IMG/VR virus record: IMGVR_UViG_3300024259_000083
Location: 1 to 38,751 of that record
DNA from: a virus
DNA length: 38,751 nt
Direction: 5' to 3' (one strand)
Of this stretch, positions 2,790 through 38,751 are shown piece after piece. How positions within the stretch are numbered: position 1 is the stretch's first letter; every line of letters starts with the position of its first letter. Made by a program: the position numbers and the translations under genes. The notes below the pieces were generated by a model. That model made no database searches, was not told the origin of the DNA, and worked only from the letters and a program-made list of their open reading frames with translations.

Positions 2790-4821
2790 ATTAGAACTCA
2801 AAAAAGATGAAGAAACTGCAACAAAAGAATCAATACCAGAGATAAGTGATGACGAAGTACTAGATTTAATACTAGATAAGGTCAAATCGGCTGACGTACA
2901 ATATAGATCAAACAAAGAAATCTATGAAAGACTAGAGAATCTTTATTTTGGGAACGTAGCACTGGATTCACCAGTGAAGGAGCTTGAGACGCAAATATCT
3001 ACTGGTCAAGCATTACAAACAGTTGAAACAATCACGCCTAGACTAACTGCTGGAAGAATTAGAGTTGATTTTACAGAGACTAAGGCATCTGACAAATCTA
3101 ATGCAGATCTGGCAGAGAAGTTAGTAAACCTACAAATAGAATCAGATAATCTAGAAGAAACTCTAGAACTCTGGATACGTCAGGCAGTTAAGACTCATGG
3201 TGCATTAAAGGTTGATTTCAAACTGGAAGAAGTGAAGTTCATGCGTAAGCAGAAAGAGAAGCAACTGCGTATTCCTATGACAAAGAAAGTGATAGGTATT
3301 GGTAAAACTGTAGAAGTAGAAGAAGTAGAGGAGATATTCAAACATACACTAGAGATAGTTTCATATGAAGATCTAATTATTCCACCAGCAAGAGACTACA
3401 ACGATCTACCATTTATTGGTCAGAACGTAGAGAAGACTATATTTGATATGGAACAGGATGATAGATACCATAATTTAGAAAATCTAGCAGAATACTTGGT
3501 GAAGAACTCACCTAACAAAGATAATGATGAGTTTTCACTGTCGCGAAATACAGCACAGGATCTAGATAATGATGCACTACGCTCATATACAATCGGAGCA
3601 TCCATTCCATTAAGAGAAATCTACTACAAGAAAGATAAATATATGTATGTAGTGGAGTACCATGAAGAATCTGGAACAGTTGTAAGAAATGAAGGACTAC
3701 GATACTGGCATGGACTATTACCTATTAGACCTTTATCAATTATTCCAGTAGAGAATCAAGTAATTGGACTTTCACCACTACAAACAGCAGAACATCAGAT
3801 TGATACACTAGATATTCAACACAACACAATCCTAACTACTAGCCTATTTGACTTACAAAGACCTTTGGTTTTTGATCCTAGATTTGCTGGTGTTAACTGG
3901 CAGAAGAATCCACCAGTATATAAAGCTGGTATGAGTTATCCTATGAAGGATGGAGCGAAGACTATGACAGTACTACCTGCTCCTAAAGTTGATGGTTCAC
4001 ACTTACAGATGTATGGCATATCCAAACAAGTCATTCAAAATATTACTGGAGTTACTGACTACATTTCAGGTGGTGAACAAATTGACGGAGATAAGACACT
4101 GGGAGAAGTTAAACTAAAAACAGCTCAATCTAACAAGAGATTTGAAGGAGTAGCAAAGATAATCAGACGTGCATTGACTGATGTATTTATTATGATGAAC
4201 TCTAACAATCAACAGTTCTTACCTGAAGGGTATGAAGGTAGGATATTTGGTGAAGCTGGATTCAAGCACCAGAGATTCTCACCTGAATCTATACAAGGTA
4301 AGTTTGATGTTCGGATCAAAGGATTTGAAGATATCTTTATTAATGAAGCAGAGAAGGTAAACAAGTATCAGGCTATGATTGCAGATGGTCTCAAAGTAAA
4401 TCAAGCTATAGGTAAACCAGTAGTGGATATTCCATATTTAGTAAGTAAACTTTATTCAGAAGGTTACAAAGTAGATGAAATGGATAAGGTAATCATTCCT
4501 ATAGAAGATACCAATAAACAAGAAGATGGTGGGAAGCAAGCAGAAGCTAAACGTGCAGATGCAGAAAATAAGAATCCTGAAACAGCAATGCTCCGACCTG
4601 ATGAAGATATGTCAGTACATCTTGACGTACATGAAGCATTCATTCAATCACCAGCGTATAAGCAACTACCTAAAAAGAAACAGATGATACTGGCACGTCA
4701 TGTTGGCAATACTAGAAAAGCAATGGCAGGACAACAGGAGAATCAAGCGCCGGTAGAAGGACAAGTGCCAGCAATGAGACCTAAAGATCAGAAGTTACAA
4801 CCACCTAACCCTCAACAATAA
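2776..4821 (+). CDS. Portal protein
   Basis: 681 aa, in the size range of the large P22-type portals of podoviruses. It follows directly after the large terminase and precedes scaffold and capsid, the canonical place. The acidic N-terminus is followed by a long mixed alpha/beta core with a helical segment rich in Gln/Asp (QTAEHQIDTLDIQHN, about residues 335-350). A hydrophilic C-terminus rich in Lys, Glu, Gln and Pro (about 570-681) could form the barrel/crown part. It would form the dodecameric DNA channel at one capsid vertex. AAGGAA lies 7 nt before the ATG. The last base of its stop codon is shared with the next ATG (TAATG). The family call rests on context and size, since portal sequences diverge strongly. 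Confidence 0.85.
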   Translation: MPKDKLELKKDEETATKESIPEISDDEVLDLILDKVKSADVQYRSNKEIYERLENLYFGNVALDSPVKELETQISTGQALQTVETITPRLTAGRIRVDFTETKASDKSNADLAEKLVNLQIESDNLEETLELWIRQAVKTHGALKVDFKLEEVKFMRKQKEKQLRIPMTKKVIGIGKTVEVEEVEEIFKHTLEIVSYEDLIIPPARDYNDLPFIGQNVEKTIFDMEQDDRYHNLENLAEYLVKNSPNKDNDEFSLSRNTAQDLDNDALRSYTIGASIPLREIYYKKDKYMYVVEYHEESGTVVRNEGLRYWHGLLPIRPLSIIPVENQVIGLSPLQTAEHQIDTLDIQHNTILTTSLFDLQRPLVFDPRFAGVNWQKNPPVYKAGMSYPMKDGAKTMTVLPAPKVDGSHLQMYGISKQVIQNITGVTDYISGGEQIDGDKTLGEVKLKTAQSNKRFEGVAKIIRRALTDVFIMMNSNNQQFLPEGYEGRIFGEAGFKHQRFSPESIQGKFDVRIKGFEDIFINEAEKVNKYQAMIADGLKVNQAIGKPVVDIPYLVSKLYSEGYKVDEMDKVIIPIEDTNKQEDGGKQAEAKRADAENKNPETAMLRPDEDMSVHLDVHEAFIQSPAYKQLPKKKQMILARHVGNTRKAMAGQQENQAPVEGQVPAMRPKDQKLQPPNPQQ

Positions 4822-5033: not shown

Positions 5034-5047
5034 CATATTGTTGCTCT

Positions 5048-5099
5048 AGTGGGATCGTCAAGCAAGGTTTTCGCAGTGTCTTTCCTTGCTGATCCCACT
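5048..5099 (+). promoter_or_regulatory. Long hairpin upstream of the scaffold-capsid pair
   Basis: AGTGGGATC (5048-5056) pairs with GATCCCACT (5091-5099), and AGCAAGG (5061-5067) pairs with CCTTGCT (5084-5090). This gives 16 bp with a 4-nt bulge (5057-5060) and a 16-nt loop. No T-run follows, so it does not look like a simple terminator. An RNA-processing or mRNA-stability element is inferred. Confidence 0.75.
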
Positions 5100-5129
5100 G
5101 GGGTAGTAATATCCCTATCTAATCAGTCA

Positions 5130-5850: not shown

Positions 5851-6723
5851 ATGGGTTTAGGCACAAATCACCAGACTACCACAAGCCATGCGATATTTAT
5901 TCCAGAGATATGGGCTAAACATTCGCAGAGGGCTAAAGAAAAAGCATTGCATCTCGCTAACTTCGTTTATCGCAGAGATGATGAAGTAAGTGCATTCGGA
6001 GATGTTCTTCACACTGAAACCATCTCAAACTTGTCAGCAAATGACAAAGCAATAAACACTCAAGTTACTCTACAAACTCCTTCCGAATCTGACGTAGATC
6101 TAACAATCAACAAGCACAAAGAAGCATCATTCTTGATTGAAGATAACTTGTCTCAAAAGGCAATGTTAAACCTCATGCGAGAATATGTAGGAAAAGGTTC
6201 TTATGGAGTCGGCGCACAAGTTGACACAGACCTATTCGCACTTTACAGCTCACTTACAACCACTGATGTAGGAACAGCAGGGTCAGCACTGACTCAATCC
6301 ACTGTTGCATCAGCGTGGGAAACACTATCAACAGCAGATGTACCTGAAGAAGATAGATGTTGGTTCTTCCATCCTTCAGCTTATGCTGATCTTCTATTAA
6401 TTTCTGCTTTCACAAGCATTGATTTCAAAGAAGCAGTCGGACAAGTTGCAAAGAGTGGAATGAATGGATTAGTAGTAGGATATATGTATGGATCACCAGT
6501 TAAGATCTCTACCAATGTACCTGCAACTACCGAAGGTTCTCCAGCAGTAGCTTCCAGAGCAAATCTATATTTGCACAAAGAAGCCTTCCAGTTGGGAATG
6601 CAAAAGGAAAATAGAATCCAAAGTGATTACATCCTAGAATATCTCGGTTTCTTAACAGTAATTGATGCTATCTACGGTGTTGCCACTTATAGAGCAGACC
6701 ACGGTGTACAGGTTCTAAACTAG
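5851..6723 (+). CDS. Major capsid protein
   Basis: 290 aa. The N-terminal pattern FIPEIWA, then FVYRRDDE and GDVLHTETI, followed by a helical region (EDNLSQKAMLNLMREYV), fits HK97-fold major capsid proteins of podovirus type, where FIPE-hW and a GD-h-h strand mark the N-arm and E-loop. The C-terminal half contains strand-rich P-domain/A-domain-like sequence ending in VATYRADHGVQVLN. It directly follows the scaffold gene. No protease gene or long cleaved N-terminus is evident. It lacks a Shine-Dalgarno: the leader is a CA-rich ACGACAACAACCA. Downstream is a very stable hairpin (6741-6768), which may protect or delimit this highly expressed mRNA. Confidence 0.88.
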   Translation: MGLGTNHQTTTSHAIFIPEIWAKHSQRAKEKALHLANFVYRRDDEVSAFGDVLHTETISNLSANDKAINTQVTLQTPSESDVDLTINKHKEASFLIEDNLSQKAMLNLMREYVGKGSYGVGAQVDTDLFALYSSLTTTDVGTAGSALTQSTVASAWETLSTADVPEEDRCWFFHPSAYADLLLISAFTSIDFKEAVGQVAKSGMNGLVVGYMYGSPVKISTNVPATTEGSPAVASRANLYLHKEAFQLGMQKENRIQSDYILEYLGFLTVIDAIYGVATYRADHGVQVLN

Positions 6724-33560: not shown

Positions 33561-33607
33561 GTCTTTTTTCCTCTCTTTAGTTAGTGTCTTATTACTTAAC
33601 TATCTTC

Positions 33608-33636
33608 AGTATACACCTATACGGTATATATTGCAA
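33608..33636 (-). promoter_or_regulatory. Leftward sigma70-type promoter
   Basis: On the minus strand TTGCAA (33636-33631), a 17-nt spacer, then TATACT (33613-33608), ahead of the 35-aa gene. The -10 lies in GGTGTATACT, a context shared with the rightward promoter. It should drive the whole leftward arm. Confidence 0.8.
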
Positions 33637-33744: not shown

Positions 33745-33773
33745 TTGCATTATTTTTCAAATGGGTGTATTCT
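33745..33773 (+). promoter_or_regulatory. Rightward sigma70-type promoter
   Basis: TTGCAT (33745-33750), a 17-nt spacer, then TATTCT (33768-33773). The spacer ends GGGTG like the leftward promoter (GGTG), so the two promoters share a TTGCA-N17 design and a G(G)GTG-TAT context. It lies upstream of the attenuator-like terminator and the 64-aa gene. Confidence 0.75.
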
Positions 33774-33816
33774 AGAAACGTAATACAACGCCAATTTGCG
33801 TGATGTATTCAAGGAA

Positions 33817-33847
33817 GCCGACCAGTTGTGTTACATAGGTCGGTTTT
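33817..33847 (+). terminator. Leader terminator/attenuator
   Basis: GCCGACC (33817-33823) and GGTCGGT (33838-33844) form a 7-bp stem (last pair G-U) with a 14-nt loop, followed by a short T4 run. It lies in the leader of the 64-aa gene, just after the rightward promoter, so it could attenuate rightward transcription until antitermination. Confidence 0.7.
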
Positions 33848-33864
33848 CGTTATCTATAACAATT

Positions 33865-34059
33865 ATGGAACACAAAGTAGAAAATATGAGAGCATATAAA
33901 GTAGTAGAAGAATTTGTTGCTAGTGGTAGAAAATTAGATCCAGATGATTTATTTAATGAAGCATATATCAAATACCAGACTGGTAAACATAGATGCCCTA
34001 GTTATATTAAAGGTAAACTACGTCAGTCTATTAGTATTATATCTAGTAGATTATCGTAG
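33865..34059 (+). CDS. Small basic protein, first rightward gene (64 aa)
   Basis: 64 aa from ATG 33865. The longer frame that begins at TTG 33796 would run through the terminator stem and is less likely. It contains AYKVVEEFVASGRKLDPDDL and YQTGKHRCPSYIKGKL: helical and basic, with possible nucleic-acid binding. No Shine-Dalgarno is clear. It might be a small regulator acting on the leader terminator, but this is inference. Confidence 0.65.
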   Translation: MEHKVENMRAYKVVEEFVASGRKLDPDDLFNEAYIKYQTGKHRCPSYIKGKLRQSISIISSRLS

Positions 34060-34094
34060 TTTTAGTTTAGAATAGCGTATCACCCCGATATAAG

Positions 34095-34206
34095 TGTCTA
34101 TTGTGGAGCTGATAAGCGAGAGTGCAATCATTAGCCTGCATGGATTTCAGTAGTAACCATGTATCCGACCACTCTAACGGTAACGCCAGCTATGAAGCAA
34201 TAGACC
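34095..34206 (+). ncRNA. Candidate structured RNA (novel)
   Basis: In a gene-free stretch (34060-34479), one 112-nt region folds by eye as a nested rod. GTCTATTG (34096-34103) pairs with CAATAGAC (34198-34205), 8 bp. AGCTG (34107-34111) pairs with CAGCT (34187-34191). GCG (34116-34118) pairs with CGC (34184-34186), continuing into AGAGTG (34119-34124) with CACTCT (34170-34175). A 7-bp terminal hairpin pairs 34137-34143 with 34157-34163. An 8-nt bulge AACGGTAA lies at 34176-34183. It does not fit tRNA (no T-arm) or a hammerhead core. A 7-bp hairpin (34259-34278) and a terminator (34378-34404) follow, so the transcript could be about 330 nt. Confidence 0.6.
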
Positions 34207-34377
34207 GATTAAGAACTTTTTATTCGCCCAAAACGCCAATAAGTCCAATTTATATTCACTAATACCAAGAAGTATTAGAGAGGGCTATCAATGACGAGAA
34301 GTTTTAGATCTTAATTAGTATGAGACGAACTGGGATTGACCCTTTTACATCTACTGCATGCCAAATATATGTCATGA

Positions 34378-34404
34378 TTAGTCAGGGAGACTAAGAGTTT
34401 TTTT
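34378..34404 (+). terminator. Intrinsic terminator after the structured RNA
   Basis: TTAGTC (34378-34383) and GACTAA (34389-34394) form a 6-bp stem with loop AGGGA, then GAG and a T7 run (34398-34404). It closes the region 34060-34404 and precedes a new promoter, so it separates the RNA region from the next gene. Confidence 0.72.
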
Positions 34405-34422
34405 ATTCCAGTAAGTAGTAAT

Positions 34423-34451
34423 AAGACAATATGTGAAATTTATGATATACT
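34423..34451 (+). promoter_or_regulatory. Promoter before the 64-aa gene at 34480
   Basis: AAGACA (34423-34428), a 17-nt spacer, then TATACT (34446-34451). The -10 is a strong match; the -35 is weaker. The start codon follows 29 nt later with AAGGAG. Confidence 0.65.
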
Positions 34452-34479
34452 GAATATACAAGATCATAATAAGGAGTAT

Positions 34480-34674
34480 ATGATAGAAGCATTACAAGAA
34501 TTAAAAGACGATATCGTTGCTGGTGGGCAAGCTACAAGGCAACATATTGGAACAGCTTTAGCACTTATAGCTGGAGCAGATGCCGATAGAGATACAGAAA
34601 TTAAAGAATTACTTTCTGGCACTCTGGGCGCAGAAGATATAGATAAAGTTATAAAAGACCTCAATTCATACTAG
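34480..34674 (+). CDS. Small helical protein with own promoter and terminator
   Basis: 64 aa, MIEALQELKDDIVAGGQATR and onward; helical, Ala/Asp-rich, acidic. It has a strong ribosome site (AAGGAG), its own promoter and an intrinsic terminator that overlaps its stop codon. So it is a stand-alone unit, possibly highly expressed early. The family is not recognised. Confidence 0.75.
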   Translation: MIEALQELKDDIVAGGQATRQHIGTALALIAGADADRDTEIKELLSGTLGAEDIDKVIKDLNSY

Positions 34675-36117: not shown

Positions 36118-36480
36118 ATGAAGACAACACTGAAGCATTATAATTATTTTTGTGGGCGAGTGTCCTTTTACAAGAAGAAGTTCCATTTGGACGAATGGGA
36201 GGTTGATACTGATTTTGTAGAGCTTAGGAATGAGTTGGCGGTGGCACAGACAGGGAGGCATGAGCATGGAGGGGCTTTAATCTCCTTGAGTAAGAGTGCC
36301 GGTAGTGAGTATGATTCGGAGCAGGAGATGAAGGTTCAACTTGATCTCAATGCTAAGCATGAGATATTGCATTTGTTACTTGGTGATTTAGCTATGAAGG
36401 CTTACGATAGATGTGTTTCCGAGAAGGAAATCAATATCTCAGAGGAGCGATTAGTTAGACGACTAAGTAAATTCCTATGA
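36118..36480 (+). CDS. HExxH metallopeptidase-like protein
   Basis: 120 aa. AKHEILHLLLGDL supplies an HExxH zinc motif (H80, E81, H84 by rough count), typical of small gluzincin-like phage proteins. The N-terminal WEVDTDFVEL resembles a beta-rich entry. Codon choice looks slightly richer in G than neighbours (e.g. GGGAGG, GAGCAT), hinting at separate acquisition. AGAGGAAAAAG precedes the ATG. It overlaps the HNH gene by 4 nt. Peptidase activity is inferred from the motif only. Confidence 0.7.
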   Translation: MKTTLKHYNYFCGRVSFYKKKFHLDEWEVDTDFVELRNELAVAQTGRHEHGGALISLSKSAGSEYDSEQEMKVQLDLNAKHEILHLLLGDLAMKAYDRCVSEKEINISEERLVRRLSKFL

Positions 36481-36977
36481 CCAAAGAACAAATACTCAAA
36501 AAGGAATGTAAATACTGTGAGCAAGATATGGTTAAGAAACCTAAGTATTCCTATAAACAATGGGCTAGTAGAGAATATTGTAGTAATCTTTGTAGAGCTA
36601 AAGCTATTAGTAAATTTCAAGTTGGTCATACAATAAATGTTGGTATCCCTACTCCTCTTGAAACTAGAAGAAAAATCAGTAAAGCCTTATCTGGCAATAA
36701 AACACATCTTTGGAAAGGTGGGATTACTAAAAAGAATAAACTAATTAGAACTGGCATGGAGTTTAGAAACTGGCGTAAATTAGTATTTGAAAGAGATGAC
36801 TATACTTGTCAGGAATGTGAACTTCGTGGGGTTGAATTAAATGCACATCATATTAAATCATTTGCATTATATCCTGAACTACGATATGAGATAGACAATG
36901 GCAAAACACTATGCGTAGAATGTCATAAGGAAACACCAACTTATAAAGGTAAAATGAAAAACTATGCTTTCGTATAA
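36477..36977 (+). CDS. HNH endonuclease with NUMOD3 motif
   Basis: 166 aa. An N-terminal zinc knuckle pair (CKYCEQD, CSNLC), a NUMOD3-like DNA-binding repeat (ETRRKISKALSGNKTHLWKGG region, about residues 60-80), then HNH: CQEC, NAHHIKSFALYP and CVECHKE. Such free-standing enzymes often drive their own spread (homing). It lies 0.5 kb upstream of the methyltransferase alleles, so it could promote gene conversion there; this is inference. Confidence 0.85.
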   Translation: MTKEQILKKECKYCEQDMVKKPKYSYKQWASREYCSNLCRAKAISKFQVGHTINVGIPTPLETRRKISKALSGNKTHLWKGGITKKNKLIRTGMEFRNWRKLVFERDDYTCQECELRGVELNAHHIKSFALYPELRYEIDNGKTLCVECHKETPTYKGKMKNYAFV

Positions 36978-37496: not shown

Positions 37497-38675
37497 ATGA
37501 CAAAAAAAGACATGGAAATTAAATATATTAAGGTTGATAAACTCAATCCTGCAGATTATAACCCTCGTCAAATGACAGAGAAGCAGGAGCAGGAGTTGAT
37601 AGATAGTTTACAAGCGTTCGGATTTGCAGAACCAATAGTAGTAAATAGTAATCCAAAGAGAAAGAACGTAATAATAGGAGGGCATCAGAGAGTAAATGTA
37701 GCAAAACAGATCGGAATAACTGAAATCCCTTGTGTTTTTTATAATCTAGACGAAGAAAAGGAAAAAGAACTGAATATCAGGTTAAATAAGAACTTGGGTG
37801 AGTGGGATTATGACTTGCTGCATAGCTTTGACTTGGATTTATTAACTGATATTGGATTTGATGAAACTGATTTATCTAAAGAACTAGATAAGCTGATAGA
37901 ACCAGAAGAAGATGAAGCACCAGAAGTAGATAATAAGAAGAAACCGGATAGCAAAATCGGATGTGTATATGAACTAGGTAGGCATAGACTGATGTGTGGA
38001 GATGCTACAAAGAAGGAAGATGTAGAGAAGTTAATGGATGGTAAAAAGGCAGATATGGTGTTTACTGACCCACCTTATGGAATAGATTTTACAGGAAATG
38101 TTCACGCAGATGGAAGCAAAAGTCATAATTCTAAGTTTGGTAAACTAAAAAATGATAAGTTATCAGACCAAGGGCAGATTGATTTTATTAACGATTATGT
38201 GGGTATTATAAAACAATTTACTATTGGAGCTTATTATATATGTTGGTACAGGCTAGGGTTACACCAACTGTTTAATGGTATTATAAATAATGATTTAGAT
38301 TATAAAGCTTTAATTATTTGGGATAAGGGTAATCATACTTTAAGTAATAGTGATTATCAGAGTAAGTTTGAACCAATAGTATATGGGTGGATTGATAAGC
38401 ATAATTTTTATGGCGGAAGGAGTAATTTTGATTTATGGGATATTGAGAGGACTAAAAAAAATATATTACATCCTACAATGAAACCAATCGCTCTTGTAAT
38501 AAATGCAATAAAAAACAGTAGTAAACAAGATGATATAGTATTAGACCTCTTCGGTGGTTCTGGCTCTACCCTCATCGCAGCCGAACAAACCAATAGAACT
38601 TGTTATATGATGGAACTAGACCCCAAATATTGTGATGTAATAAGGAAACGATACGATACTTTTAACAATAAATAA
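37497..38675 (+). CDS. ParB-domain DNA methyltransferase, allele B (full length)
   Basis: About 392 aa from ATG 37497 (a second ATG at 37512 is also possible; TTG 37488 is less likely). The N-terminal ParB-like nuclease domain is at about residues 8-100: VDKLNPADYNPRQM, IIGGHQRVNVAKQIGI, EIPCVFYNLDEEKEKELNIR. The methylase domain has DPPYG then, at the C-terminus, LDLFGGSGSTLIAAEQ (SAM site), in the IV-then-I order of beta-class N6-adenine/N4-cytosine enzymes. It aligns along its length with the truncated copy at the left end, with divergence concentrated in the central half. No partner restriction enzyme is near, so it is orphan. It may protect phage DNA. Confidence 0.9.
   Translation: MTKKDMEIKYIKVDKLNPADYNPRQMTEKQEQELIDSLQAFGFAEPIVVNSNPKRKNVIIGGHQRVNVAKQIGITEIPCVFYNLDEEKEKELNIRLNKNLGEWDYDLLHSFDLDLLTDIGFDETDLSKELDKLIEPEEDEAPEVDNKKKPDSKIGCVYELGRHRLMCGDATKKEDVEKLMDGKKADMVFTDPPYGIDFTGNVHADGSKSHNSKFGKLKNDKLSDQGQIDFINDYVGIIKQFTIGAYYICWYRLGLHQLFNGIINNDLDYKALIIWDKGNHTLSNSDYQSKFEPIVYGWIDKHNFYGGRSNFDLWDIERTKKNILHPTMKPIALVINAIKNSSKQDDIVLDLFGGSGSTLIAAEQTNRTCYMMELDPKYCDVIRKRYDTFNNK
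37732..37855. repeat. Left edge repeat, right-end copy
   Basis: Identical to 1-124. It lies inside the methyltransferase gene, about 240 bases after its start, so both copies share exact sequence up to codons around 120 of this allele. Confidence 0.95.
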
Positions 38676-38751
38676 CTATGCCATTCACAACAGGAGATCC
38701 GAATATAAACAGAGAAGGAAGACCTAAAGGTTCTGGGATTTCTATTACAAC
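38625..38751. repeat. Right edge repeat, right-end copy (127 bp)
   Basis: Identical to 882-1008 and ending exactly at the window end. It includes the methyltransferase stop and the first 74 bases of the small terminase-like gene, so the sequence continues into the same gene found at 935. Confidence 0.95.
38678..38751 (+). CDS. Start of the small terminase-like gene (3' truncated by window end)
   Basis: The first 74 bases equal 935-1008 (MPFTTGDPNINREGRPKGSG and onward). This is the same gene reached again around the circle, not an extra copy. Confidence 0.85.
   Translation, partial: MPFTTGDPNINREGRPKGSGISIT

Follow-up and report, generated by a model that had tools for sequence, protein, structure and literature searches.

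A long hairpin resembling an mRNA-processing site borders a gene-free spacer in an uncultured podovirus-like phage

The gene-free stretch at 34060-34479 of the window (the whole 38,751-nucleotide stretch of viral DNA analyzed here, IMG/VR record IMGVR_UViG_3300024259_000083) is most likely an ordinary kind of feature, an mRNA-processing spacer, within an unusual phage. An earlier note had described positions 34060-34404 as a candidate new structured RNA. Our analysis finds one statistically strong RNA structure here, a 28-bp hairpin at 34001-34076 on the plus strand; most of it falls upstream of that interval, and it has the look of a site at which mRNA is processed. The earlier note missed this hairpin, and its interval start at 34060 cuts through the hairpin's 3' arm. 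The real RNA structure is thus relocated from the rod of the spacer to a hairpin across a stop codon. We propose, with a probability of roughly 0.45, that the interval is an untranslated spacer in a rightward early transcription unit that is cut at this hairpin, and that a new promoter probably precedes the gene that follows.

The window represents almost the whole genome of an uncultured podovirus-like phage. Its ends (1-1008 and 37732-38751) overlap by about 1 kb, imperfectly, in a methyltransferase gene, and both are covered by a sibling contig (L009), which suggests a genome of about 37.7 kb that is circular or terminally redundant. Recognizable phage genes include a terminase, a portal, a P22-type coat and a DNA methyltransferase. 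The terminase is about 30-42% identical to those of the nearest phages, and the capsid protein is 67% identical in one 5.7-kb contig (L093). Leftward-running genes begin at 33.5 kb and rightward-running ones at 33.9 kb.

The sibling contig is near-identical overall and identical to the window across 34060-34479, a very short divergence. Besides this contig, no homologue of the region is found by blastn against phage and plasmid records, by scanning viral and genome contigs for exact 18-mers, or via both flanking proteins and the terminase and capsid alignments; the region is absent from the 171 loci that these searches gathered. Four other contigs have the metallophosphoesterase gene in common with the window (40-48%), and none of them shows similarity to 34060-34479. 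A weak blastn match to Pelagibacter phages (query 118-167, E 0.06) falls in the segment of the open reading frame (ORF) at 33865 and is dismissed.

The gene-free status of 34060-34479 is clear. As the earlier note had stated, there is no plausible ORF: none of at least 60 amino acids occurs, a model of codon usage that was trained on long genes of this phage gives no coding signal in any of the six frames, and a protein frame, which the earlier note had listed as a point to check, is not seen there. The only longer start-to-stop frame, 40 amino acids at 34140-34262, is rejected (codon score -0.17, no Shine-Dalgarno sequence). The flanking ORFs at 33865-34059 and 34480-34674 score 0.28 and 0.51 per codon, respectively, and true genes 0.30 +/- 0.13. 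At 420 nucleotides this is, as described, the longest gap between accepted genes of the genome; real gaps elsewhere mostly measure about 130-160 nucleotides, and the longer 'gaps' in the gap list are artefacts of start choice within long ORFs. Base composition is near background, with no break at the interval.

The 28-bp hairpin is strong by every measure applied. It consists of 5 bp, a 1x1 loop, 5 bp, a 3x3 loop, 8 bp, a 2x2 loop and 10 bp closed by an 8-nucleotide apical loop, so that all its internal loops are symmetric, and the stop codon of the 64-residue gene at 33865-34059 falls within it. The plus-strand window 33961-34080 ranks second of 1288 in a genome-wide folding scan (z -6.4, 0/200 shuffles), and the pair probabilities are 0.84-1.0 in all contexts. 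The signal is strand-specific, with z of -6.4 on the plus strand versus -1.1 on the minus strand for the 120-nucleotide window, and -5.0 versus -3.5 for a window restricted to the hairpin. Only one of 500 synonymous recodings, and none of 500 permutations of the gene's own codons, is as stable, so the hairpin is not a by-product of protein coding; its strength exceeds what coding needs.

An RNase III processing hairpin like R1.1 of phage T7 is expected to contain, within a single stem, about two turns or more of double-stranded RNA, with no interruptions other than small internal loops or bulges. The 28 pairs of 34001-34076 provide such a stem, and its interruptions are small (1x1, 3x3 and 2x2). 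In phage T7, long imperfect stems between early genes, of which R1.1 is the best described, are RNase III targets and drive the maturation of T7 mRNA (PMC8708148). Like the R1.1-type sites, 34001-34076 is a long imperfect hairpin, probably between early genes of one transcript, that has symmetric loops, is strand-specific and is not a terminator; unlike them, it covers the last codons of a reading frame, and the likeness is a structural one, with cleavage predicted. We therefore propose 34001-34076 as a putative RNase III-type processing site, which on the inferred transcript lies over the stop codon of 33865-34059 and ahead of the spacer.

The surroundings of the hairpin are consistent with an early transcription unit. 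A probable rightward early promoter, TTGCAT-17-TATTCT at 33745-33773 on the plus strand, mirrors a probable divergent leftward promoter, TTGCAA-17-TATACT at 33608-33636 on the minus strand, the two forming a 29-nucleotide inverted repeat (I2). The leftward promoter is identified by promoter scan, inverted repeat and pattern match, and across the genome TTGCA-N15-GTGTATNCT is matched perfectly at these two sites and nowhere else. The rightward transcript would begin with two hairpins, at 33782-33848 on the plus strand (z -4.0, 0/200 shuffles). The second of these, GGAAGCCGACC/GGTCGGTTTTC, has a long loop and is terminator- or attenuator-like; the pair is a possible attenuator or antitermination leader. 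The plus-strand gene that follows, 33865-34059, encodes a 64-residue protein of unknown function with no Pfam, PHROG or tblastn relative. Beyond the spacer, the plus-strand gene 34480-34674, also of 64 codons, has an AAGGAG ribosome-binding site and no relatives beyond the sibling contig. Upstream of it, at 34423-34451 on the plus strand, the promoter scan reports a promoter-like site, AAGACA-17-TATACT with an extended -10; TATACTGAATATA of this site resembles TATACTGAAGATA of the leftward promoter (inverted repeat I6). Near these two promoter-like sites is also a 15-nucleotide inverted near-match, TAGTGTCTTATTACT at 33582-33596 and AGTAATAAGACAATA at 34417-34431, a possible shared operator. 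Folding also exceeds expectation at 34501-34620, within gene 34480, but less so when judged against synonymous recoding (28/300 as stable), and this candidate is set aside.

From these features we infer transcription, promoter use and cleavage at the spacer locus as follows. Rightward transcription would begin at the divergent promoter near 33745-33773 and run through the two-hairpin leader and then the 64-residue gene at 33865-34059. Host RNase III may then cut the long symmetric hairpin, so that the message of 33865-34059 would be parted from the RNA that follows it, much as in T7 early RNA processing. Positions 34077-34404 would be left as a folded, weakly constrained 3' fragment, and gene 34480 would be expressed either from the promoter-like site at 34423-34451 or via read-through. 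Because long imperfect stems are known RNase III targets in T7, the interval is read here as the untranslated piece 3' of a processing hairpin. In favor of a spacer, the promoter scan finds no plus-strand promoter-like site between 33865 and 34400 and one at 34423; against it, a simple spacer in this genome would be expected to be shorter than 420 nucleotides, and 34201-34320 folds somewhat above chance.

The length and the folding of the interval bear on the first alternative, that 34077-34404 is a trans-acting non-coding RNA of about 330 nucleotides, freed by the hairpin cut or made from a promoter of its own and serving an early regulatory or host-takeover role. We consider this somewhat unlikely. 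Apart from occupying the longest gene-free stretch of the genome, such an RNA would have well defined helices. The rod that the earlier note described is the minimum-energy fold (ViennaRNA) at 34097-34204 on the plus strand, with 8-bp closing, 5-bp, 9-bp (with a AACGGTAA bulge) and 7-bp terminal helices, and its separate 7-bp hairpin is predicted at 34258-34278; both persist when more flanking sequence is folded with them. Across all contexts tried, pairs in the rod's closing, 5-bp and terminal helices form with a probability of at least about 0.9, those in its middle helix with 0.4-0.9. The 7-bp hairpin sits inside a second domain, 34207-34312 on the plus strand, in which an outer helix of the AAGAACUUUU/GAGAAGUUUU type surrounds it, and the fold window 34201-34320 is moderately unusual (z -2.55, 2/200 shuffles). 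In addition, the rod's joint span and count of high-probability pairs is reached by 1.25% of shuffles, a measure picked post hoc, when the fold had already been seen.

The energies, however, tell against a dedicated RNA. Against dinucleotide shuffles the rod has a z of -1.65 (14/200 as stable) in one test and -1.07 (15/100) in another, and 9% of 400 shuffles are as stable in a third, so that its stability is not clearly beyond that of shuffled sequence. For the whole 345-nucleotide interval 34060-34404, z is -0.54 and 27-30% of shuffles are as stable. Greater stability than composition-matched shuffles, a property that supports a structured RNA without strictly defining it, is thus found neither for the rod nor for the interval. 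The proposed 3' end is also poor. The element at 34378-34404 on the plus strand, TTAGTC-AGGGA-GACTAA followed by GAG and seven T residues, had been taken for an intrinsic terminator, and it resembles a rho-independent terminator in having a hairpin and then a T-run. It differs in that the stem is not G+C-rich (6 bp, 2 of them G-C) and is separated from the T-run by the 3-nucleotide GAG gap instead of being joined directly to it; with about -5 to -6 kcal/mol and a z of -0.18, it is weak, and the terminator scan does not report it. A promoter of the RNA's own is not found in the promoter scan.

Database searches are negative as well. The lack of resemblance to known RNAs, previously judged by eye, holds up, with zero Rfam, tRNA or tmRNA matches, and the Rfam search that the earlier note had suggested gives 0 matches at the gathering threshold and chance ones only when relaxed to E 10. 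The spacer shares with the curated phage small RNAs and ribozymes of Rfam 15 that it is phage-borne, untranslated and in an early region, but matches none of them at gathering or relaxed thresholds, and a trans-acting RNA would be without a homologue in the collections searched. What stands of the candidate structured RNA is a gene-free, foldable interval with its rod and 7-bp hairpin as predicted structures; the claim of a new RNA otherwise rests on a rod near the shuffle level, a poor terminator and an argument from space. In its fuller version this alternative posits a new class of non-coding RNA that phages make early, about 330 nucleotides long, 5'-released at the 28-bp hairpin and trans-acting in a deeply isolated podovirus lineage; this is more doubtful still.

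That the folding and composition of the interval are close to background would also suit a decayed or replaced gene, leftover DNA that no longer has a function and that the HNH homing-type endonuclease genes nearby (34828 and 36477) may have scarred. This origin appears improbable, since residual coding periodicity is absent in any frame and phages usually delete functionless remnant DNA; the identity of the sibling contig in this region also speaks against decay, although that divergence is very short. With regard to these neighbors, the 98-residue frame at 34828-35124 matches a PHROG homing-endonuclease family and has a non-coding-like codon score, and is probably a recently acquired gene; the HNH gene is at 36477-36977. 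A DNA-level element (a replication origin, a packaging or recombination site, or an operator region between transcription units) is very unlikely: the interval adjoins the divergent early promoters, and the 15-nucleotide inverted match joins 33582-33596 and 34417-34431, but neither iterons nor other direct-repeat arrays are found and there is no composition break at the interval. Finally, the interval could be a leader or riboswitch-like element that controls gene 34480 from its 5' untranslated region. This would account for structured domains immediately ahead of that gene, but is hardly credible given the intervening promoter-like site (34423-34451) and weak terminator, the lack of any riboswitch match and a gene unrelated to anything known.

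The preferred reading, a spacer 3' of a processing hairpin, gains a wider setting from the capsid region of the genome, as long intercistronic hairpins recur in the clade of this phage. The strongest fold of the entire window (z -6.7) is a hairpin at 5035-5112, in the gap that leads into the probable scaffold gene. That gene, which comes just before the capsid gene, is assigned on its position and size rather than on a family match. In eleven distantly related podovirus contigs with inspected gene maps, selected from contigs with a strong hairpin, a non-terminator hairpin of 20-28 bp occurs in or at the edge of the same pre-scaffold gap, ahead of an ORF of 230-280 amino acids lying before the capsid gene; the stem sequences are mostly unrelated. 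The hairpin of L093 is at 3793-3845, and the 70-nucleotide windows that hold the others start at 5918 (L096), 9047 (L098), 8810 (L100), 8352 (L102), 5047 (L104), 3710 (L106), 2696 (L115), 4191 (L123), 9127 (L126) and 6010 (L139). In a blind ranking of 42 loci, the single strongest window falls in the pre-scaffold zone in 8, versus 3.9 expected, and the second-strongest does so in several more. Because of this modest excess, and because the inspected contigs had been picked for strong hairpins, the enrichment is suggestive only.

The pre-scaffold hairpins possibly serve RNase III processing of the late operon. Long intercistronic hairpins would then be a recurrent device in this uncultured phage clade, one of them at a shared pre-scaffold position and, if confirmed, they would mean that RNA is processed in the manner of T7 in unrelated environmental podoviruses too. 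One or more base pairs are exchanged in compensatory fashion between the hairpins of L102 and L106 (C-G to T-A in GTGCCCGTC/GGCGGGCAC). Also, a GGGCAG motif is shared by L093, L104, L105, L115 and L123, where it lies within the apical loop or close to it.
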